64,000 nucleotides of DNA, from positions 248,001 to 312,000 of the forward strand of contig JAUIAH010000002.1 of NCBI GenBank assembly GCA_030425385.1, written 5' to 3'. The notes beneath the pieces were generated by a model. That model had not been told where the DNA came from. It searched no databases and saw only the letters and a program-made list of their open reading frames with translations. Origin of the DNA: Verrucomicrobiia bacterium. GTDB lineage: Bacteria > Verrucomicrobiota > Verrucomicrobiia > Verrucomicrobiales > DEV007. Position 1 is the stretch's first letter; each line of letters starts with the position of its first letter. A program made the translations under genes and the position numbers. Shown here in pieces: positions 2,172 to 12,907 of this stretch.

Positions 2172-3581
2172 ATGGATCCCCTTCAGATTAGCCGCCGCAC
2201 CTTTCTCAATCGCGCCAGCACGGGCATCGGCTCCGTCGCCCTGACGTCCCTTCTGCAGCAGTCCCAAGCCACGGAAGCAGCGAAACGTTGGACGGGAGCA
2301 CTCTCACAGACCCACACACGAGCGAAAGCCAAGACCGTCATCCACCTTTGCATGGCTGGCGGCCCGTCCCACTTGGAATTGCTCGACTACAAGCCCAAAC
2401 TCGCCGAAATGCATGGGCAGCCTATGCCTGACAGTTTCACAAAGGGGCAACCTATTGCACAGTTGCAGGGACGAGCGTTGACCTGCTTCGGCCCGCAACA
2501 CGATTTCCAACGTTGCGGCGCATCAGGCCAACACATCAGCTCTATTCTCCCTCACATTGGCACCGTAGCAGACGACATCGCCATCGTACGCTCCATGGTC
2601 ACCGAGCAGATCAATCACGATCCCGCCCACACCTTCTTCAACACCGGCACGCAGATTTCGGGGCGACCGTGCATGGGGTCCTGGCTCCTCTATGGACTGG
2701 GCGCATCGACCGATGAGTTGCCTGGTTTCGTCGTCTTGACCTCGGTCGGTGGCGGGCAGAGCCAACCCATCGCGGCGCGCCAGTGGCATAGCGGCTTTCT
2801 CCCGAGCCGGTTCCAAGGCGTTCCCTTTCATTCCAAGGGTGATCCCGTGTTATACGTCAGCAATCCGAAAGGGGTGCAGCGTCAAGATCAACGCCAATTG
2901 GTCGACACTGTCAATGCCCTCAACCGCATGCACGACACACACGTGGGTGACCCAGAAGTCGCCGCACGCATCGCCCAATATGAAATGGCCTTCAAGATGC
3001 AAACATCCGTACCCGGACTCATGGACGTGCACGATGAACCGCAGCACATCCTCGATCTCTACGGAGCCAAGCCGGGCGACGGCTCGTTTGCATCGAATTG
3101 CCTTTTAGCGCGGCGCCTGGCTGAACGCGGCGTCCGCTTCATACAACTCTATCATCGTGGTTGGGACCACCACGGCGGAGTGAAGAACGGCACCCGCACC
3201 ACCGCCGGCCTCGTCGATCAAGCCAGCGCCGCCCTGATCAAGGATCTCAAGCAGCGTGGGATGCTAGACGAAACGTTAGTCATCTGGGGAGGCGAGTTCG
3301 GACGCACACCGATGGCACAAGGCACCGGACGGGATCACCACATCAAGGGCTTCTCCATGTGGATGGCCGGAGGTGGGATCCGCGGAGGCATCAGTCATGG
3401 AGAAACGGACGAACTCGGCTACAACGCGGTGAAAGACGTCGTCCACGTGCGGGACTTCCATGCCACCCTCCTCCACCTCTTCGGCATCGATCATCACCGC
3501 TTTAGTTACAAATTCCAAGGGCTCGATGCCCGTCTCACCGGCGTCGAACCCGCACACGTCATCAAGCCACTCCTCGCCTAA
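2172..3581 (+). CDS. DUF1501 family protein (twin-arginine exported, sulfatase-like fold)
   Basis: A 469-residue DUF1501 protein. The N-terminus carries a twin-arginine motif (SRRTFLNR, residues 7-14) followed by a short hydrophobic stretch, so export in folded form is likely. Family hallmarks are MAGGPSHLELLDYKP near residue 61, WGGEFGRTPMAQG near residue 372 and a following GRDHHIKGFSMWMAGGG block. DUF1501 is related to the alkaline phosphatase/sulfatase superfamily, but no substrate is known. The start ATG lies three bases after the stop of the DUF1549/DUF1553 gene, so the two are surely co-transcribed. A second, separate copy of this gene pair occurs at 45624-49749. The length is normal for the family. 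Confidence 0.9.
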   Translation: MDPLQISRRTFLNRASTGIGSVALTSLLQQSQATEAAKRWTGALSQTHTRAKAKTVIHLCMAGGPSHLELLDYKPKLAEMHGQPMPDSFTKGQPIAQLQGRALTCFGPQHDFQRCGASGQHISSILPHIGTVADDIAIVRSMVTEQINHDPAHTFFNTGTQISGRPCMGSWLLYGLGASTDELPGFVVLTSVGGGQSQPIAARQWHSGFLPSRFQGVPFHSKGDPVLYVSNPKGVQRQDQRQLVDTVNALNRMHDTHVGDPEVAARIAQYEMAFKMQTSVPGLMDVHDEPQHILDLYGAKPGDGSFASNCLLARRLAERGVRFIQLYHRGWDHHGGVKNGTRTTAGLVDQASAALIKDLKQRGMLDETLVIWGGEFGRTPMAQGTGRDHHIKGFSMWMAGGGIRGGISHGETDELGYNAVKDVVHVRDFHATLLHLFGIDHHRFSYKFQGLDARLTGVEPAHVIKPLLA

Positions 3582-3719: not shown

Positions 3720-3742
3720 TAAAGCCCTGCTGTCCGGCTTTA
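3720..3742 (+). terminator. Stem-loop downstream of the DUF1549-DUF1501 pair
   Basis: TAAAGCC and GGCTTTA form a perfect 7-bp stem with a 9-base loop, about 140 bases after the DUF1501 stop, and the 3' arm ends in TTTA. A smaller perfect stem (AATCGG/CCGATT, 3587-3601) lies just after the stop. Either could end the operon. The long U-run of a classic intrinsic terminator is missing, so this is a candidate only. It coincides with the broken 5' edge of the dinG remnant. Confidence 0.35.
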
Positions 3743-4321
3743 CGTGGCCAAGACGATGCCTGAACCGAATGACATCGCGTTTGAAGAAGCGTTAGAGAAA
3801 CAGATCCAACACTTTGTCACCCAGAGTTCTGGGCGTGCGTTCGTCCTCTTTACCAGCTACCGTCTCATGCAACGCCTTGCCGGCCACATGACACCGTTCT
3901 TTTCGGGACAAGGTTGGCCCCTGCTGGTCCAGGGTTCAGGTAAACCGCGGGCCACGCAGATCGAAATGTTCAAGAAGGACATCGACAGCGTGCTCTTTGG
4001 CACGGACAGTTTCTGGACCGGGGTCGACGTCCCAGGTGAAGCTCTCTCTAACGTCATCGTCACGCGCTTGCCCTTTGCCGTCCCAGATCATCCGTTGGTC
4101 GAATCTCGGCTCGAACAAATACGCGAACGGAACGGTAATCATTCATGGATTACTCGGTCCCCGAAGGCGTGCTCAAGCTTCGACAAGGCATCGGTCGTCT
4201 TATCCGTTCTGGAAAAGACCGGGGCATCGCCGTCATTCTGAACAACCGCGTCCTGACAAGGCGCTACGGGAAGGTCTTTCTGCAAGCCTTGCCCCAAACA
4301 TGCCTCGTCGTGGCAGAGTAG
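3723..4321 (+). pseudogene. dinG: dinG-type helicase remnant: 5'-truncated and frameshifted
   Basis: Only the C-terminal ~200 residues of a DinG-type superfamily 2 DNA helicase remain. The frame is open from 3723 with LYVAKTMPEPN, then FVLFTSY, the FGTDSFWTGVDVPGEAL block and RLEQIRERNGN. At about 4140 the frame breaks: the family pattern NPF-M-YSVPE needs AAT CCA TTC ATG, but the sequence reads AATCATTCATG, one C short. Reading on in the shifted frame from 4145 restores MDYSVPEGVLKLRQGIGRLI and the family-typical C-terminus NRVLTRRYGKVFLQALP, ending at TAG 4319-4321. The N-terminal half, with Walker A, iron-sulfur cysteines and DEAH box, is absent. The gene is dead on two counts. A related helicase (58507-60912) is intact. 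A GTG at 3744 opens a 165-codon frame but would give a useless fragment. Confidence 0.88.
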
Positions 4322-4384
4322 GATCCTTGAGACATTGCGGGATTTTGTAGAATTCGCTGGCTTCTAGGGCTATTGTCCGGGGTG

Positions 4385-7300
4385 ATGATTTCCAAGCTAC
4401 GCATGGCCTTCGTCGGCTTTGCACTCCTAGCAAATGCCAATGCACAGCTGTGGGAAGAAACGCCCCTGCTACCTCCATCGCCCAAAGAGTCACTAAACGG
4501 ATTGCTAGTTCACGATCTTACGGGCGACGGACTTCCAGAACTCATTGGTTATGGAGCGCTCGATGAAGCGAATCCTCTCTATCTTTTTGACAATAATGGT
4601 GGTGGAAGGTTTAGCCTTCGTCCTCCGATCAGCGGAATCGAGTTTGCTAAGATTTGGCCGGTGGATGTCAATGACGTCGATGCCGATGGACTCGTAGATA
4701 TCATCGTCGCGACGACCACGACATCCCCTTTCCGGAGAGGCATTGCCGCAATGCTGCAAGATAGCGAGGGAGGGTTTGCCAATTCAGTTACTCTTATCGA
4801 ACCGAATTCCACGATCTTCAGATACGTTGGGCTACTCACGACAAAAGACGGGCAGCTTGATAGCATCGTGACTCAAGATCTTGCGAACGAACCTGCCTAT
4901 ACAAGGTATACCCAGATCGAACCGCTCACGTTCACATCAACGCAAATGCAGCTTCCGCAAGATTTACCGGGTGACCCTCCGTTTTCATCTGAATTGGTCG
5001 ACATGACGGGAAATGGTCTTCAAGACTTGGTTCTCTACCGCAACGGTTCGTCCGTTACTGTTATATACCAAGCTGAGCGTGGCGTTTTCAGTAACTTTAG
5101 AGTCTTTGAGGATACTCGACGGCTGTCGCCGATCAAAACCCGAGAAGGAACTGATGGACTCGTGCGCTATTCACCTTCGACGAGTAGCTTGCTGTTTAAA
5201 GCGAACGCAAGCGACGTTGACTCAGAATGGGAAACTGTCGGGATAAGAACCCGTTTATCGGCACTAATCGTGGGAGAATTCGATGGAAACGAAGAGAATG
5301 GCCAAGAAGTGGCATGCGTTGCGATGCAGGATCACTTGTCGCGTCTATCAATAGCCAAGAGAGCCGGGAACGCGTGGGGCGATAAAGAAATCACTCAAAT
5401 CAAGGGAGACATTCTCGCAGCGGATATCGATGACGACGAAAGAACCGAGATTCTTGTTACTAGCAGCGACCTAACATGTCTCTTCGACCTTGACCAAGAT
5501 GAAGAGTTTCGAGAGCGTGGACGATGCGTTGTTGTGAATAGCTTTCGGCCTCATTCACTTCTTCACATTCGAGCGAAGCACGATCAGGAGGCTGGCATTC
5601 TCTATGGTACATCCGTGGGAGTAATCTTTATCCCAGCAGGCGAAATTGGATTGGAACATCCCAAGGCATATTACATAAACAGCGATACTTCTTCAAGTCC
5701 GTTTCGTTTGGAGGACTTCGACAGCGATGGTCAAACTGAGATTCTCCAGGACAATCGTATTCTCGTTGGGCTGGGAACATCCACGGCTCACTTCGATGTG
5801 CTGGGCTCTGGATTGCCATTGAAAGATGCTGTCATTGTTGATGCCAATGAAGATGGTCTTGAAGACGTCCTCTATCCGCTTGGATCCGAGACCGCGCCAA
5901 GATGGTACTACTACAAGAATCACGGGGACGGATCTTACTCGTCCAGTGCTGTGCCACTCAAACTATCCGGCAGAAACTGGCAACTCTCCAATGATATAGA
6001 CGGCGATGGTGCGCTTGATTTCATCTCTCACCATGAATCGGAGGAGAGTATCATTGGCTACAACAGGGGCTCGTTTCCTCCAGAACCCAGCATTCGTTTC
6101 TCCGGCACATCTGGGAATCGAGTATCGTTTGTCGACTTAAGAGGCGACGGGCATCAAGACCTTATCGAATGGCGACGAGCTGGAAAGATTCGGACGCTTG
6201 TGGGTTGGCATCCACAAAGTGAAGATGGAACCTACCAGACTGCCTCGTTCATCGTAAAGGACCGGTTCGGAGCCCAAATCGATCATGCAGCTATAAGTAT
6301 GGTAGATGGACTAATGGACGTCAATGGCGACGGGCTTCTGGATCTGTTGAGATTAAATTGGTGGTACAAGAATCAAGGTGATGGAACCTTTCTGTTTCCT
6401 CGCGTTTTGGTAGGCGAGGCTCTTACGAGTCGGTTCACTCCCTCTCGCTCTGGAAATCTGAACCTCGACGAAGACAGCTACGCCGAGTTTGTATCTGATT
6501 ATGTTCTTTTGGATGGGTACTATCCTGATGTAGCCCCCAAGATCCTGATAGAGAAGCCCAGCGTCGAACTTGAAATAGGAGAATGGTTTTACGCGAGAGC
6601 GACCGTTCTCGACGCGACAGACGTGGAAATTCGAGACGCACCGGTCTTGAGTAACGACGCTCGTCTAGGCATGCCGCACGAAGACCTGACTCATCAGCAT
6701 GCGGTCACGCTCTTGCCCGAGCATCAACCTTGGAGAGTCTATCTCGATGCTGAAGCTCCGCCCGAGGAATGGAAGGACGACAACTTTGATGATCGTTCAT
6801 GGAGATCTGTCATGGGCCCATTCACAAATAGAGAACTAGCGGGCGCTACGAACATTCTCGAAGCGGGCGTCTCTCCCGAGACCACTGCCTATTTCAGGGC
6901 ACGATTTTATGTACCAATAAGCGAGTTTGACTCGAGTGGTTTTTCCAAAACTCGGTCTGTGTCTCTATCCATTGCCGCCGATGATGACTACGTGATCTAC
7001 ATAAACGGGGGGCATTACTTCTCATCCCCAGGCTTTCAGGGTTTGCGTCATACCTTGATAAAGCACGAGACTGCCGCGCTTCGCTCAATAGATGGGTCAC
7101 AGCCAGACCACTTGGAGGTCATTGGATTGAGTGGGGAGCAACTTCGAGAAGGCTGGAACTCGATTGCGGTTCAGGTCCACCAGGCGAGCGACGGAGAGGA
7201 CGATCTCTTCATGGAGGCATCGATGGTAGGGCTTAACCCGCCTCTCAATCAAACGGTTGCGGTCCCTGTCACCGCTACGAATGCATTCGCGACCACGTCG

Positions 7301-9175
7301 GACACCATTTCAGTTACCTATCGACGCGCACCCAGAATTAGCGGCAGGTTCTCCGATGACTATTGGCAGATCTTTCCAGGAGACCCTGTCGAGCTGAGCT
7401 GGAGATCAGAGTTGCCAGGATCTCTAGCCATCACAGATGCCGAAGGGAGCTTCACTTCACCAGTTCCTGCTGTGGGAAGTACAGTTATCCACCCTCGCTA
7501 TGAGTCCCGTATTACGCTAACAAGCACCAACGGAAAGCATGAGAACCAATGGTTTGGCTATCTAATTCCTCGGTACTATGGAGCTGAGAAACTCGTTCAA
7601 ATCCAGCGCAATGACAATAGAAGTGATAGGTTGGTCATCGGCGATCTTGATGCGGATGGTGACGACGATTTCCTTTTCCAAGGAAGAGCCTATGATTCCG
7701 TTTACGAGCCGCTGCCATTCATCTACACGACGGAGGACCAAGTTCTATTGGATCTAGATCGTGATGGCAAAGCCGATCTGCTTGAGATCCAGGCGAATTC
7801 ACTCGATGTTCTCATGCTGCGAAACGACGGGACGCAGTTCGGAGAGGAGATGATGGTGGGTAACTGGCAAGGGCCATCTCACCCACGGCTAGTCCATGCC
7901 ATCGACAGGCCGGTGGAGAACTTAGTCGGGTTGCTGGGCGTAGGTGGATACCTTGAATTATTGGCTCTCCAAGACGACGGATCACTCAAAACCACACTAC
8001 GATCAACTGAATACCGCTACCTTGGAGCGAGTTGTGTCGATGTGGACGGAGACGGTTTTTCAGAAATCATTGCTCATTCCGAGGAGTCCGTGATTCAGTT
8101 TCGTCAGTCTTCAGCTGGAATATGGTCGCCACCCGAGAAGATCTTTAGTTTTTTCGGCATCCAAGATGTGCAGCTAGCGCACGTCGACAACGATGACGTT
8201 ACCGACTATGTAGTATTGACTAGAGCTGGAGCGTTGTTTGCCTTTCATTCAAGCGGGTCAGGAATCGTGGACTTTGACGAACCCAGAGAGTTCAACCGGA
8301 GTCAGCCGCGCATTGATTTCTTGTTACCTTCAAAGGATATCGACGGTAATGGTAAAGTGGACCTTTTGGCAGCAAGCGGCGGCCTGATCGATTGGTGTTC
8401 AGGCGTGTCACCAGATAAACCTACGCTTGAATCGCTAGGAGGCAGCAATGATCAGACGACATTTGGTGACTTTGACGGAGATGGCGATGAAGATATTGTT
8501 AGCATCCTATCCCTTGATGATGGCAGACAATGGTTGGCTCATCAGGAGCATTTGGGACACAAAGCGCCAGAGTTTCGTCGAACGTCCGTCGATCCGGATG
8601 GCACGTTGAGTGGACGAGGATGGGGGGTGTCTTGGAACGCCACAAGGGCTGACAAGGTTACCCTTCAGCCTATGAACCACGAATACTCGCCGATGGCAAC
8701 AGTCAGTCTCGGAGACTACGAAGGGACTCTTCGAGTCATCGCTAGCAACGACTTCGGTACGGATGAGGTAGAGCTACAGATCGTGACCGATCGAGATTCT
8801 GACGGTCTACCCGACGCGTGGGAGCTTTGGTTTGGAAATGACCTGGCACTGTCTCCGGATGCGGATGATGATGGAGATGGAGACAGCAATTTTACGGAGT
8901 TTCTACTTGGAACGGCACCGACCATGGCTGGCGAAGCTCTTCTTACTCTGAGCGCAGACGGCCGACTGATAATTGATGGCCCAGTGGGCTCGGTGATGGA
9001 GCTGGAGCAATCCCACTCGATGAATCCGACCGACTGGCATGTGATCAATGGCTTCACGTTGCCCGACGAACCGCTGGAAGCTTGGCAGGTTCCAGCCTTG
9101 AACGTTGGCTCACCGATGGTAGGACCGCGAGCGTTGCCGCTTTCTGAATTCTATCGCCTCCGGCTCGTCGAGTGA
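4385..9175 (+). CDS. Large secreted FG-GAP/VCBS repeat protein
   Basis: A protein of about 1596 residues with a signal peptide ending ...LLANANA|Q. ATG 4385 is preferred over the in-frame TTG at 4373 because it gives a compact signal sequence. Most of the chain is FG-GAP/VCBS repeats with calcium-binding loops such as DVNDVDADGLVDI, DLDADGDDDF and DFDGDGDEDI, the usual sign of a seven-bladed beta-propeller; there appear to be at least two propeller sets. A galactose-binding-like domain lies in the middle (about residues 780-960, FDDRSW, DDDYVIYING, GWNSIAVQVH). The end has a TSP3/dockerin-like loop (DRDSDGLPDAWELWFG) and a beta domain ending FYRLRLVE. Base composition is clearly AT-richer than its neighbours (4561-4620 has 26 G/C of 60), suggesting recent acquisition. 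Scraps of dinG lie on both sides. The ligand is unknown; adhesion or matrix binding is inference. Confidence 0.88.
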   Translation: MISKLRMAFVGFALLANANAQLWEETPLLPPSPKESLNGLLVHDLTGDGLPELIGYGALDEANPLYLFDNNGGGRFSLRPPISGIEFAKIWPVDVNDVDADGLVDIIVATTTTSPFRRGIAAMLQDSEGGFANSVTLIEPNSTIFRYVGLLTTKDGQLDSIVTQDLANEPAYTRYTQIEPLTFTSTQMQLPQDLPGDPPFSSELVDMTGNGLQDLVLYRNGSSVTVIYQAERGVFSNFRVFEDTRRLSPIKTREGTDGLVRYSPSTSSLLFKANASDVDSEWETVGIRTRLSALIVGEFDGNEENGQEVACVAMQDHLSRLSIAKRAGNAWGDKEITQIKGDILAADIDDDERTEILVTSSDLTCLFDLDQDEEFRERGRCVVVNSFRPHSLLHIRAKHDQEAGILYGTSVGVIFIPAGEIGLEHPKAYYINSDTSSSPFRLEDFDSDGQTEILQDNRILVGLGTSTAHFDVLGSGLPLKDAVIVDANEDGLEDVLYPLGSETAPRWYYYKNHGDGSYSSSAVPLKLSGRNWQLSNDIDGDGALDFISHHESEESIIGYNRGSFPPEPSIRFSGTSGNRVSFVDLRGDGHQDLIEWRRAGKIRTLVGWHPQSEDGTYQTASFIVKDRFGAQIDHAAISMVDGLMDVNGDGLLDLLRLNWWYKNQGDGTFLFPRVLVGEALTSRFTPSRSGNLNLDEDSYAEFVSDYVLLDGYYPDVAPKILIEKPSVELEIGEWFYARATVLDATDVEIRDAPVLSNDARLGMPHEDLTHQHAVTLLPEHQPWRVYLDAEAPPEEWKDDNFDDRSWRSVMGPFTNRELAGATNILEAGVSPETTAYFRARFYVPISEFDSSGFSKTRSVSLSIAADDDYVIYINGGHYFSSPGFQGLRHTLIKHETAALRSIDGSQPDHLEVIGLSGEQLREGWNSIAVQVHQASDGEDDLFMEASMVGLNPPLNQTVAVPVTATNAFATTSDTISVTYRRAPRISGRFSDDYWQIFPGDPVELSWRSELPGSLAITDAEGSFTSPVPAVGSTVIHPRYESRITLTSTNGKHENQWFGYLIPRYYGAEKLVQIQRNDNRSDRLVIGDLDADGDDDFLFQGRAYDSVYEPLPFIYTTEDQVLLDLDRDGKADLLEIQANSLDVLMLRNDGTQFGEEMMVGNWQGPSHPRLVHAIDRPVENLVGLLGVGGYLELLALQDDGSLKTTLRSTEYRYLGASCVDVDGDGFSEIIAHSEESVIQFRQSSAGIWSPPEKIFSFFGIQDVQLAHVDNDDVTDYVVLTRAGALFAFHSSGSGIVDFDEPREFNRSQPRIDFLLPSKDIDGNGKVDLLAASGGLIDWCSGVSPDKPTLESLGGSNDQTTFGDFDGDGDEDIVSILSLDDGRQWLAHQEHLGHKAPEFRRTSVDPDGTLSGRGWGVSWNATRADKVTLQPMNHEYSPMATVSLGDYEGTLRVIASNDFGTDEVELQIVTDRDSDGLPDAWELWFGNDLALSPDADDDGDGDSNFTEFLLGTAPTMAGEALLTLSADGRLIIDGPVGSVMELEQSHSMNPTDWHVINGFTLPDEPLEAWQVPALNVGSPMVGPRALPLSEFYRLRLVE

Positions 9176-9180
9176 TCTCC

Positions 9181-9222
9181 CTTCAGGCGCTGCCGCAGAT
9201 GTGCCTTGTCGTCGTGGAGTAA
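9181..9222 (+). pseudogene. 42-bp scrap of a second dinG 3' end
   Basis: Six bases after the FG-GAP gene stop, the frame LQALPQMCLVVVE-stop (TAA 9220-9222) appears. The dinG remnant at 4280-4321 ends LQALPQTCLVVAE-stop. The two 42-base segments differ at about 13 positions, nearly all third codon positions, and only two of 13 residues differ. They are therefore diverged homologous gene ends, not a recent duplication. No further dinG sequence is visible upstream, where the FG-GAP gene lies. The pair brackets that gene. Confidence 0.7.
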
Positions 9223-9246
9223 CTCCATGCGAGAATAGCGAAGCGA

Positions 9247-9712
9247 ATGACAGATAACCTATCACTCCCCCTACACGGAAATCGAGTCCTCCTCAGACGC
9301 TTGTCGGCAGCGGACTGCGGACTTGATTGTCTTCCAAAACTATCGACACGATGAAGAGGTGGGTCGCTACCAAGGCTGGGAGCCCTGGCCTGACCCGAAA
9401 GCTCTTTCGTTCCTGAGCACGGTTGATCTTCTCCAGCCAGACACGTGGTGTCAGATTGGCATCGCTGACCGAGAATCGGGAGCATTGCATGGGGACATCG
9501 GGGTGTGCGTCCGACCGAAAGAAGACGAGGCCGAAATTGGGTTTCCACTCAATGCACAATACGAGGGTCGCGGGTTGGCAACCGAAGCCGTAGGACTTGC
9601 GGCTGACCTCTTGTTTGAACAAACCTCTATCGGGCACATTGTATGCATCACCGATGCACGCAATTGTACTGGTTCAGCGAGAATGTACGTTTTGGCGGAT
9701 GAATTTAAGTGA
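9247..9712 (+). pseudogene. GNAT acetyltransferase broken by a 7-bp tandem duplication
   Basis: A RimJ/RimL-type GNAT N-acetyltransferase gene with a frameshift. Translation from ATG 9247 gives MTDNLSLPLHGNRVLLRRLS and then AAD, the normal beta1 opening. The sequence there reads gcggactgcggacttg, that is gcggact twice in tandem, which shifts the frame. In the other frame the protein continues DLIVFQNYRHDEEVGRYQGW, then EIGFPLNAQYEGRGLATEAV (the acetyl-CoA binding region with the GRGLATEA loop) and ITDARNCTGSARM, stopping at 9712. Removing one copy of the 7-mer would restore one reading frame of about 153 codons, so the lesion is a single simple event. The C-terminus is a little short for the family. 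The acceptor substrate cannot be told. Confidence 0.82.
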
Positions 9713-10054
9713 CTCTGGTCGTCTCTTATACAGTCGCAATCGGCTGCGTTCAGGTGTGCGGTCTGCTGGTAGAGCGTTTGATGGATCATCATGAATCGGA
9801 AAATGCGCCATGGCGAAGTCCTTGAGTTGTTGATAGGTCGCTTGAGTTCGTCAGGGCCGCGAAGAAACGTAGGCGTTTCCGTGGCTTTGTCTTGTATGAT
9901 GGCTCGTATTCACGCTTCGTGGTTCGCCAAGGCCATTTCAAGGCTGTTGCGACTATCTATCTACCTGCATTCGAATTCTCACGGGCCGACAGGGACGTCG
10001 GCCCGCCCAGGGGTGGCAGTGGGGCGAGGGGAAGGCCGCCCTTCATCGACTCTA
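9713..10054. other. 342-bp intergenic stretch with a strong hairpin
   Basis: No convincing gene is visible. Its main feature is the hairpin at 9982-10005. A plus-strand frame without a start codon is open from 9826 to 10071 (reading FRGFVLYDGSYSRFVVRQGH in part) and overlaps the 3' end of the next minus-strand gene; it looks protein-like but has no ATG/GTG start or ribosome-binding site, so it is not called. The stretch may be further debris of the dinG/GNAT island. Confidence 0.5.
9982..10005 (-). terminator. GC-rich hairpin after the SGNH/propeller gene
   Basis: CGGGCCGAC, a 6-base loop AGGGAC, then GTCGGCCCG form a perfect 9-bp GC-rich stem, 50 bases downstream of the minus-strand stop at 10055. 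No U-tract follows on the minus strand, so it may be a rho-independent-like stop, an mRNA 3' stabiliser, or a member of a dispersed palindromic repeat family. Confidence 0.5.
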
Positions 10055-12907
10055 CTACTCGACTTTCATGATGCCGCGCATGAGGAGGTGGTGTCCGGGG
10101 AAGGTGCACACAAACTGGTAGTCGCCTGGCTCGCTGGGCACGGCGAATTCGATGGTTTGTTCGCCTTTGTGGTCGAGCAGTTTGGTGGCGGCGAGCACTT
10201 GGTCACTTTCTGGGACCCATTCTTTCTCAAATCCTTCGGCTCCTAACAGAACCGCGGCATTGCCCACGTCGTCAGCGGCTCCCGGTTTCACGATGACGAG
10301 GTTGTGCGGCATGAAATCTGGATTGGCGAAGGTGAGCTTGAGGGTCTTGCCTCGCGTGACTTTGAATTGGTTGATGTCGAATTGGAGCTTCTCGACCACG
10401 GTTCCCACGCGAACTTCGATGTGGGTGTCTGTTTCGTTGAGCACGCCCGATTTCTGGGTGACGACGATTTCTTCTTCCTCGACTGCCGTTGTGCCTTGAG
10501 CCGGATCGGCGGCATACCAGTGGTGTTGGACGGTGGCAGCGGCGATACGGGCATGCGGCTCAGGGGAGCCTAACATCTTGGTGAGGAGATCGGTGTTGCG
10601 CACATCATGCTGTTGATGCAGCCAGAGGGCTTCTAACAAATGATGGGCATGATCTTTGTTCTGATGATCCCATTGCGCCATCCACTTTTCACAAGCGGCG
10701 ATGACGGCTTTGGAATCTCGTCCGCTGAGTTCGACGCGTGCGCGATGACGGACGCCGTCGACAGGATGCTCTAACACCTTGAGAAGATTCTCAATGGACT
10801 CCCCGGCGATGGCCACGGGAGCTTGGAGGGGGCTACCCTTGGCGGTGACGCGGTAGATGCGCCCGTGTTGGTGGTCGCGATTGGGGTCACGCACATTGTG
10901 CTGCATGTGCCCGATGATGACATTGTGCCAATCGGCGACATACATGGCTCCATCAGATCCGAAGATGGCATCCGTGGGACGGAAATTCTTGTCGGAACTG
11001 ACGAGAATGTCTGCCTTGGGTGTGCCCCAAACATGGCCGTTCTCGGGGTTCCGCTCGAGGGTGTATTGTTTGATCCCAAGGTAGCCGATGGTGTTGCAGA
11101 TGAGGAAGTCACCTTGCATATCTTCTGGGAAATGAGTGCTGGAAATGACTTCATTGGCTGGGACCGGACGCACTTCTTTCTCTAACAGTTTGTGCATCTT
11201 GAAGCTGTTCCCTTCGGGGCGCACTTGGTAGGCGCGGCCACCGGTGCCGTCGTTGGCATAATGATAACCCCAGTAGTCAAAGGAGATACCGTGCGGGTTG
11301 GGGCTATTGCCAGCGTGATGGGCAATGGTGTAGCGCCGTGGGTCGAAGCGGTACATGGCGGAAGAGCCGGTGCTGAGGGAGGGGCCCCAGGGGTGCTCGA
11401 TGTTGTTGTGTAAGAAGATGCCGCTTTGCCAGTAGATGCCTCCGTCAGGACCGTAGATGAGGTTGTTGGCGGCGTGGTGGGTGTCGGCAGAGCCGATGCC
11501 CTGGAGGATGACTTCGCGGTGATCGGCCACGTCGTCGCCATCGGTATCTTTGAAGAAGATGAGGTTGGGTTGTGAGGCCACGATGACGCCGCCGTTCCAG
11601 AACTCGAATCCTAACGGATTGTGCACCTCACAGAAGGTGATGACTTTGTCCGCTTTGCCGTCGCGATCTTCATCGGGGAGGATGAGGAGGCGATCGTTCA
11701 TTTCCTTTAGAGGCTCCCACTTGGGATAGGTCGGCCAAGCGGCGACCCAGAGGCGGCCCTTGCCATCCACTTGCATTTGCACCGGATTGACGAGTTCGGG
11801 AAATTGCTTTTCATCGGCGAAGAGGCCCACTTCGAAGGGTTCGGTGACCGTGATCTTGTCGAGACCTTCTTCTCCGCTGAGGTAAGTGAGTGATCCTTCC
11901 TTGTTAGGGTTGGAACTCTTGCTTCCACCACCAACGTTGGTCTTCACCGGAATGGGTTCGGGCACATTGCTATCGTCCACTTCCACGTCGCCTCCTTGGG
12001 CACGGGCCCAAATGCGGCGATCACGGTTGTCCGTCATGACATCGATCATCGCGAGCTCGTGCATGAGGACTTCGCGGTTGGTTTGTCCATCGGTGAACTG
12101 GAGCGTGGAACGTCCACCCCACACGTCGTTCCCATCCGTTGCCCGATAGCGATTGAACCAATGCCAGTCTTTGTCCTTCACTGCCTCTCGCAAGGCTTCG
12201 GAAGGACTCCCCAGGGAAACATCTCCTAACAAAGAAGTAGTAATCACCTCGGCGAGATGGCGATCTCCGCGTTCATTAAGATGGATGCCATTGATCGTCA
12301 ACGGAGCTTCGTAGGCTTCGTAGAGTTTCTGGGTGGGATGAAAGATATCGATGAATTCGACCTCTTTCTCTTGGGCCACTTCTTCAATGGCTTTGGTGTA
12401 GGCTGCTAACCTCACATTGTTCCCTTTTCCATCGGGCAGACTCGGATGCCCGAAGTCTTCGTGGGCGATGGGTGAGAAGAGGACGAAACGGGGCTCTGTT
12501 TCTCCGTTAGGCTTGAGCCCACGGTAGCGCTCGATCATGTCGCTGTAGGCTTTCTTGAACGAAGCGATGCCTTCTTTCCCCTGAAAGGACTCGTTGTAGC
12601 CGAAGAAGACGAAGATGACATCCGCCTGAACGTGTTTGAGATATTCTTCTGGAGGACTGAAGCCTTTGTTTCGCGGTCGTTTGTCAATGGTGTCCCCAGG
12701 AAAGGCGAGGTTTCGAATGACGAGTTCATGCTGAGGGAGCTTGCTTTGAAGGAAGGACTCCAGCCAGCCATCGAACTGCAGGCGTCCTGCCGTGGCATTG
12801 CCGATGATCGCGATGCGATCACCTTTCTCAAAACTGAATGCCGCCTGAGAGACGAGCGGGAACAGAAGAAGCGTTCCCAGAAACGAAGTGAGCAAACGTT
12901 TGGTCAT
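10055..12907 (-). CDS. SGNH-like / PVC beta-propeller / cupredoxin fusion protein
   Basis: A 950-residue exported protein with three parts. After a signal peptide ([10 protein letters not shown]) comes an SGNH/GDSL-hydrolase-like domain (about 25-225) that keeps the block V HLNERGD motif. The middle (about 340-720) is the PVC-type soluble-dehydrogenase-like propeller ([36 protein letters not shown]), with calcium-type loops [10 protein letters not shown] and [10 protein letters not shown], then a short helical-repeat stretch. The C-terminus (about 830-950) is a cupredoxin with a full type-1 copper set: His868 (MPHNLV), Cys934, His939 and Met943 ([10 protein letters not shown]). In block I the expected GDS nucleophile is replaced by GNAT, so the hydrolase part may be inactive or use another residue. 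Such propellers are proposed to be dehydrogenases; the copper domain suggests electron transfer outside the cytoplasm (inference). A strong hairpin follows the stop. Confidence 0.88.

Follow-up and report, generated by a model that had tools for sequence, protein, structure and literature searches.

Genomic islands that integrate at the 3' ends of genes, tRNA genes and similar, duplicate the 3' end of a conserved gene around the insert. The usual footprint of such integration is a direct repeat of the 3' end, including the stop codon, with the gene itself left whole. Restriction-modification genes have been described as inserting with a long target duplication, which leaves a directly repeated copy of the target on either side of the inserted gene (Nobusato et al. 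2000, as cited in PMC1643837). Homology-facilitated illegitimate recombination, or sequential displacement, is described in the account that PMC5361080 gives of Vibrio cholerae T6SS immunity arrays and orphan Rhs 3' regions. In that account a new gene comes to lie beside a conserved gene through one homologous anchor and one illegitimate join, and the old 3' end is left downstream.

We analyzed a window, a contiguous stretch of 64,000 nucleotides from an uncultured verrucomicrobial genome, in which a long FG-GAP gene lies between two dinG 3' ends (tails 1 and 2). The locus resembles genomic islands at gene 3' ends in that the 3' end of a conserved gene is duplicated around an insert, but no integrase is seen, the repeat starts vary and the cargo is small. 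As in the restriction-modification insertions outlined in PMC1643837, a gene sits between direct repeats of its target; unlike those insertions, the window tails are 33% different, the differences are coding-like, and the last codons of dinG recur as the target. The arrangement would match the arrays discussed in PMC5361080 in its new gene, its single homologous anchor with an illegitimate join, and its leftover 3' end. It differs from them in that the anchor is a housekeeping helicase gene rather than a polymorphic toxin gene, and in its passengers, an FG-GAP protein here and toxin-antitoxin-type modules or small proteins elsewhere.

The left part of the locus is a dinG 3' remnant (3735 to 4321, forward strand, as are all features below), the C-terminal part of a DinG/XPD-type helicase. 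It is truncated at the 5' end, carries a frameshift near 4140 and ends in TAG. The preliminary description had placed its beginning at 3723; homology begins at 3735 and covers the C-terminal part, not the N-terminal half of a complete helicase. The remnant's two frames match Helicase_C_2 (PF13307) at 2.3e-23 and 8.7e-13 (83.5 and 49.1 bits, cut-off 25.3).

The same genome holds an intact dinG on contig C33 (670 amino acids, Helicase_C_2 and DEAD domains), beside a SLOG-type neighbor that is common to G001. G001 and G002 are draft genomes of the same genus. The remnant is 84% and 83% identical in nucleotides to the dinG genes of G001 and G002, respectively, and 75% identical to the intact dinG of its own genome. 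It groups with the G001 and G002 genes (aLRT 99.7, UFBoot 99), and its placement as sister of its own genome's dinG is rejected (AU p=0.008). Among 57 genomes searched, this one included, it is the only one with two dinG matches. Between the remnant and G001, dN is 0.024 and dS 0.90, compared with 0.024 and 0.96 for the intact G001-G002 pair. Because this dN/dS is as low as that between intact genes, the remnant appears to have been broken recently. These comparisons make the block a fragment transplanted from the G001/G002 lineage and broken not long ago.

Tail 1 (4274 to 4340) consists of the last 15 dinG codons and stop, VFLQALPQTCLVVAE-TAG at 4274 to 4321, followed by some 15 bp similar to the dinG-GNAT spacer of G002. 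Tail 2 (9175 to 9222), ISLQALPQMCLVVVE-TAA, holds the last 15 codons and stop of another dinG, diverged from the first; its start falls on the FG-GAP stop codon (9173 to 9175). Its LQALP motif begins at 9181, five bases after that stop, where six had been reported. Among 127,912 fifteen-residue positions in the six frames of the window, the top non-self match of tail 1 is tail 2 (BLOSUM62 score 55; runner-up 30). As bare DNA, with 30 of 45 bases identical, the pair is inconspicuous in a nucleotide scan of the window, where the best score, 26, lies elsewhere. Ten of the 15 differing sites are third positions (p=0.0085 against 1/3), and the changed codons comprise eight synonymous and four nonsynonymous, which bears out the earlier statement that the tails differ mostly at synonymous sites. 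Since the differences are mainly third-position and exceed the drift of a recently broken gene, two dinG genes that evolved separately are the probable source of the tails. With only 45 coding bases, the informative sites among the tails, G001 and G002 number three that join tail 1 to G001, two that join it to G002 and two that join the two tails. The sites joining the tails, in a Cys codon and the TA- stop that occur in neither G001 nor G002, favor duplication inside one lineage.

The strong evidence for the second tail is co-linearity with G002 rather than the tail match alone. Window positions 9176 to 9663 align to the G002 dinG end and GNAT gene (71%, E=3e-63), with a dinG-GNAT spacing of 24 bp in the window and 21 bp in G002. 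The GNAT acetyltransferase pseudogene (9247 to 9664; PF13302, 3.1e-15) has a frameshift near 9320 and lacks its 3' end; its counterpart adjoins dinG in G002. Because tail 2 runs co-linearly into the GNAT gene as in G002, tail 2 and GNAT are, on this alignment, an old dinG-GNAT junction, with the FG-GAP gene separating tail 2 from tail 1. Together with the protein-level match, this co-linearity confirms the description of two diverged dinG ends bracketing the FG-GAP gene. GNAT homology stops at a 62-bp end of a repeated, probably mobile element (9665 to 9726), which falls exactly at the GNAT break and has nine further copies in this genome (94-97%; junctions compared in six of the nine). The whole block sits between a DUF1501 gene and a 950-amino-acid gene. 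An empty site between these two genes is not definable in G001, G002 and G003 because the neighbors are not conserved there.

The FG-GAP frame (4373 to 9175) is open over 1,600 codons, with candidate starts at TTG 4373 or ATG 4385, and matches PF13517 in four stretches (3.3e-38). The predicted protein is surface-protein-like, with a putative secretion signal judged by eye. The lower G+C content of the gene, as first noted, is evident at third positions (GC3 0.516 versus 0.608-0.696 in 22 other window genes). Scarcity of the word TGTTAG had also been taken as a mark of foreignness, a use the counts do not sustain: both strands of the gene hold three and the window 65, and in four stretches of this genome 110 were seen against 90.7 expected, barely above expectation. 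In the same-genus drafts G001 and G002 the dinG frame is open and no FG-GAP relative of full length is present, in line with one of the two arrangements that the preliminary description had proposed as a check. A search of 386 other genomes sampled from the phylum gave no relative at E<=1e-20, one of 56 relatives gave local matches only and none of full length, and one scan of genome contigs with six peptide patterns gave none; these same searches yielded no donor with an FG-GAP gene preceding a dinG 3' end, the other arrangement that had been proposed as a check.

We also looked for second dinG tails elsewhere in the phylum. A second tail lies within 5 kb downstream at 8 of 163 dinG loci, versus 2 of 1,286 other ORF tails (Fisher p=8e-7). 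The 163 are pooled unique loci, each with a stop and at least 300 bp of downstream sequence (L115, L133 and L195 are among those thereby dropped). The score cut-off of 40 was set once the G009 hit and the maxima from shuffling, up to 29, were known. By set, hits numbered 1 of 40 family and order loci (G009), 5 of 75 (the scanned portion of 80 loci) and 2 of 60, the last drawn as relatives of the positive genome G057 and thus not unbiased. A first background scan, with dinG genes included, a 3-kb range and a cut-off of 36, gave three hits in 668 ORFs (L077, the G009 dinG, and L056 at 38), and as a control a stretch near the ORF start had an upstream copy in 3 of 701. The nucleotide tail scan misses the window's own pair and so undercounts old cases. 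In these other genomes the gaps between tails hold toxin-antitoxin-type modules, of three kinds, or small proteins. The gene that directly follows dinG at G060 and G061 occupies the same position in relatives (G091 and G083; G105) in which no second tail was detected, so a gene between tails need not be a newcomer. Across four tail pairs, 27 of 35 differences are third-position (p=4e-4 against a rough 48% share, our own estimate for drift confined to tail 2). Pairs that contained indels or aligned over a very short length did not enter this test, and G090, with visible drift in tail 2, is part of the pool.

For the window, we infer an order and direction of events that we regard as somewhat probable: a transplanted fragment of a dinG locus, shaped by one-sided homologous recombination anchored in dinG, with the old tail left as a scar. 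In a lineage close to G001 and G002, dinG would have been followed directly by GNAT. Foreign DNA in which the FG-GAP gene followed a dinG 3' end would have entered this locus, joined through homologous recombination within dinG on one side and illegitimately within the resident dinG tail on the other; the text of PMC5361080 explains the V. cholerae T6SS immunity arrays by such an event. The recipient dinG would have remained intact, having gained tail 1 as its 3' end and the FG-GAP gene as its neighbor, while its old last 15 codons, tail 2, remained ahead of GNAT. Later, a piece reaching from the C-terminal part of dinG into GNAT would have come to this genome and landed between the DUF1501 and 950-amino-acid genes, its right side cut short by the repeated element. 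The dinG and GNAT pieces would now be breaking down, with the FG-GAP frame still open. The preliminary description likewise had a foreign block arriving at the end of dinG, a part that the G002-like junction at tail 2 supports; its further step, decay of the resident dinG in place, is ruled out by the intact C33 copy, the tree and the AU test.

Three other histories could produce two tails. In the donor lineage, the FG-GAP gene may have landed at the end of dinG and caused some 60 bp of that end to be duplicated, after which tail 2 drifted, a pattern that PMC1643837 relates for Helicobacter pylori restriction-modification genes. The shared Cys codon and TA- stop fit this, and so do G057 and G090, where both tails look native by eye and target duplication may operate. 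However, 15 of 45 sites differ, 10 at third positions, beside a remnant with the dN/dS of a working gene, and the third-position bias speaks against it because changes at first and second positions should be more frequent in a freely drifting copy. We consider this explanation rather unlikely for the window. An integrative element that used the dinG 3' end as its attachment site, carried a replacement tail and then lost its integrase would usually leave a direct repeat of the 3' end with its stop, and the gene whole; recurrence at dinG and the common end point of the G059 and G090 inserts (by eye) also agree with it. Yet we recognized no recombinase between 4340 and 9175, where the sole long ORF matches FG-GAP only, or in the eight inserts (0.13-1.2 kb; ORFs by eye, 12 proteins from seven of the eight loci scanned). 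The start of the second tail also differs between cargo types, and site-specific integration strikes us as improbable. That the contig is chimeric, or the tail similarity coincidental, is very hard to credit: the draft assembly comprises 74 contigs and the tail match alone is short, but the locus lies inside a 526-kb contig, tail 2 continues co-linearly into GNAT, and the repeat whose end lies at 9665 is genuine.

One-sided recombination at dinG, if it took place as proposed, may offer single genes without mobility machinery of their own a route into genomes behind a housekeeping gene, with a readable scar left. Detectable second tails start from 31 to 101 nt before the stop, a variation that fits illegitimate joins. 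A wider proposal, which we put forward tentatively and with considerable doubt, is that the dinG 3' end is a recurrent docking slot in Verrucomicrobiota for single genes and toxin-antitoxin-type modules that enter without their own recombinase. Each event would leave a tail copy, stacked tails such as those of G061, with two inserts and three tails, would record several arrivals in whatever order, and the window would be part of such a slot, transferred from one species to another with a cargo larger than any other found here. Were the dinG end indeed to act as a slot, tail scars would be a simple marker of arrivals in uncultured bacteria, toxin-antitoxin modules included, and the question would arise why the end of this helicase gene is favored. 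In the part of the matching literature that we surveyed by title and abstract start, none recognizably described dinG as an integration site; the term also matches an author name. ARAGORN found no tRNA inside the tail-bounded inserts of the eight loci, and we reject tRNA genes as the origin of the repeats. At G059, a tRNA-Gly lies 27 bp after the second tail.

We confirmed that two copies of the end of dinG surround the FG-GAP gene, as the preliminary description had proposed. The match between these tails was the best among 127,912 positions scored (55; next 30). The window spans positions 248001-312000 of C6, a contig of 526 kb, in the draft genome G000 (8.0 Mb, 74 contigs, 95.5% complete, 0.3% contaminated). 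Among the relatives of G000 with named records, the nearest are MAGs labelled Verrucomicrobiaceae or Verrucomicrobiales. To the right of a DUF1501 gene (2172-3581) are a 5'-truncated, frameshifted dinG fragment (3735-4321) ending in the first tail, an open FG-GAP frame of 1,600 codons (4373-9175), the second dinG tail (9175-9222), a GNAT acetyltransferase pseudogene (9247-9664), and the 62-bp end of an element (9665-9726). The right neighbor of this block, on the minus strand (10055-12907), encodes a 950-aa protein with DUF7133, GDSL, and copper-binding domains. The lower G+C claimed for the FG-GAP gene also held, with a GC3 of 0.516, an outlier against 0.608 to 0.696 in 22 other genes measured. 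The DUF1501 protein matches other genera (G013 and G016) at 82 to 84%, versus 70 to 74% for the best matches in its own genus.

Window positions 9176-9663 are co-linear with the dinG end and GNAT gene of the same-genus relative G002 (71%, E = 3e-63). There, the GNAT frame, itself interrupted by stops, begins 21 bp past the dinG stop, versus 24 bp in the window; about 15 bp past the stop of the first tail resemble the G002 spacer. Thus, the FG-GAP gene occupies the position of the G002 dinG-GNAT spacer, with the last 15 dinG codons on either side. In another relative, G001, 844 bp (L039 10402-11245) separate the two genes, versus the short spacer of G002, and the 4.3 kb examined behind dinG in a third, G003, contained no GNAT match. 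The stretch behind dinG is variable within this genus too.

GNAT homology ends at 9664, exactly where the 62-bp sequence starts. Nine further copies of this sequence occur in G000 at 94 to 97%. Of six copies compared, five lie no more than ~65 bp from a contig end and the sixth 328 bp away, and the sequence on their left differs among them; thus, the 62-bp sequence probably marks a mobile element that interrupted the assembly and is itself unassembled. The left edge at 3735, checked for copies in the genome, showed no such repeat.

The locus had been read as a foreign block recombined into the end of dinG, followed by decay of the resident gene. Recombination there probably did occur; the resident dinG did not decay, as an intact 670-aa copy is present on contig C33 and the remnant groups with relatives. 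These two are the only dinG matches in G000, and no other genome has two among the 57 searched, 51 of which (G000 included) had a match. The C33 gene keeps a SLOG-type neighbor that also precedes dinG in G001 and lies ~4 kb upstream of it in G002. The remnant is 84% identical to dinG of G001, 83% to that of G002, and 75% to the C33 gene, which is itself 76% identical to both. In a tree of 13 dinG sequences (393 codon-aligned columns), the remnant groups with G001 (88.5/93) and G002 (99.7/99), and a constraint making it sister to the C33 gene was rejected (AU p = 0.0085). The dN/dS values for remnant and G001 (0.024/0.90) are like those for the open genes of G001 and G002 (0.024/0.96), indicating that the remnant was part of a working dinG until recently.

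We searched the 5 kb downstream of each dinG for a repeat of its own last 60 bases (score of at least 40); 8 of 163 unique loci had one. Control stretches gave 1/163 (60-120 bases before the stop; G090, whose copy is longer) and 0/159 (120-180 bases before it), and none of 53 loci had a tail copy in the 5 kb upstream of dinG. Among tails of other ORFs at these loci, only 2 of 1,286 qualified (Fisher p = 8e-7); one of the two resembles the end of MutS by eye. The point from which the second tail can be recognized lies 31 to 101 bases before the stop; judged by eye, the short tail of G059 may be a deleted form of that in G090. Tail DNA of G057 matches the dinG locus alone in G057 to G060, twice per genome, and matches G061 three times, all at the dinG locus. 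The recurrence at dinG lifts the finding; by itself, the window locus is of modest evolutionary interest.

Based on ORFs and Pfam, the inserts between the tails encode DUF4160 and DUF2442 proteins, presumably a toxin-antitoxin-type module (G057, L141), a ParE-type toxin with a small partner lacking a Pfam match (G058, L125), PIN and RHH proteins (G059, L139; G090, L279), weak zinc-ribbon matches (G060, L187), and a small membrane-like ORF without a Pfam match (G009, L118). The insert of G200 (L268) is 131 bp with no clear gene. G061 (L143 10570-11720) has two inserts and three dinG tails in a row: a 188-aa membrane-like protein without a Pfam match, then the DUF4160-DUF2442 pair, its DUF4160 assigned by sequence match. 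Over 871 bp that include the dinG end, G059 and G090 are co-linear at 77%, and the DUF4160-DUF2442 parts of G057 and G061 match at 90% across 551 bp. The cases are thus not all independent, and we count six distinct inserts outside the window. By eye, the bases preceding the second tail of G009 (L118, reverse strand, just before 6907) resemble a tRNA 3' end; ARAGORN found no tRNA in that stretch.

The simplest common account of these scars is probably one-sided homologous recombination. Incoming DNA would pair within dinG, supplying a dinG 3' end together with the gene that follows, and its other end would be joined illegitimately to the resident tail. The host dinG would survive with the newcomer as its new neighbor and the old tail left as a scar. 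The window would need a second step, in which the block moved into G000, perhaps helped by the element at 9665. PMC5361080 proposes the same one-sided mechanism for T6SS immunity arrays. G000 encodes a ComEC-type competence protein, but this family is uninformative, as 10 of 14 control genomes match it as well.

The main rival is insertion with a long target duplication, as described in PMC1643837. In its favor, visual inspection of G057 and G090 suggests that the two tails of each are native to the host lineage, a pattern that fits recombination with close kin equally. The window tails show 15 differences across 45 bases, 10 of them at third positions. Such divergence exceeds what a fragment broken only recently should have accumulated, making two separately evolving dinG genes the likelier source. 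However, a Cys codon and a TA- stop common to both tails favor the opposite reading. Informative sites divide 3:2:2 among the possible tail groupings.

One-sided recombination need not have placed the newest gene nearest dinG. Most of the G060 insert also lies behind dinG in G091 (73% over 979 bp), where the stretch matches that of G083 (70% over 1,074 bp), and the 188-aa gene of G061 lies behind dinG in G105 (79% over 727 bp). G091, G083, and G105 show no second tail (scores 23, 27, and 20). Thus, that order is not established, and the gene adjoining dinG in G060 and G061 may be a long-standing neighbor or one acquired again.

Tail copies also occur behind other genes. In L152 (2506-4579), a gene that ends like MutS by eye has its tail copied ~2 kb downstream, with a 662-codon ORF between. 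The tail of a 931-codon non-dinG ORF (L077 11075-13867, minus strand) recurs 250 bp downstream.
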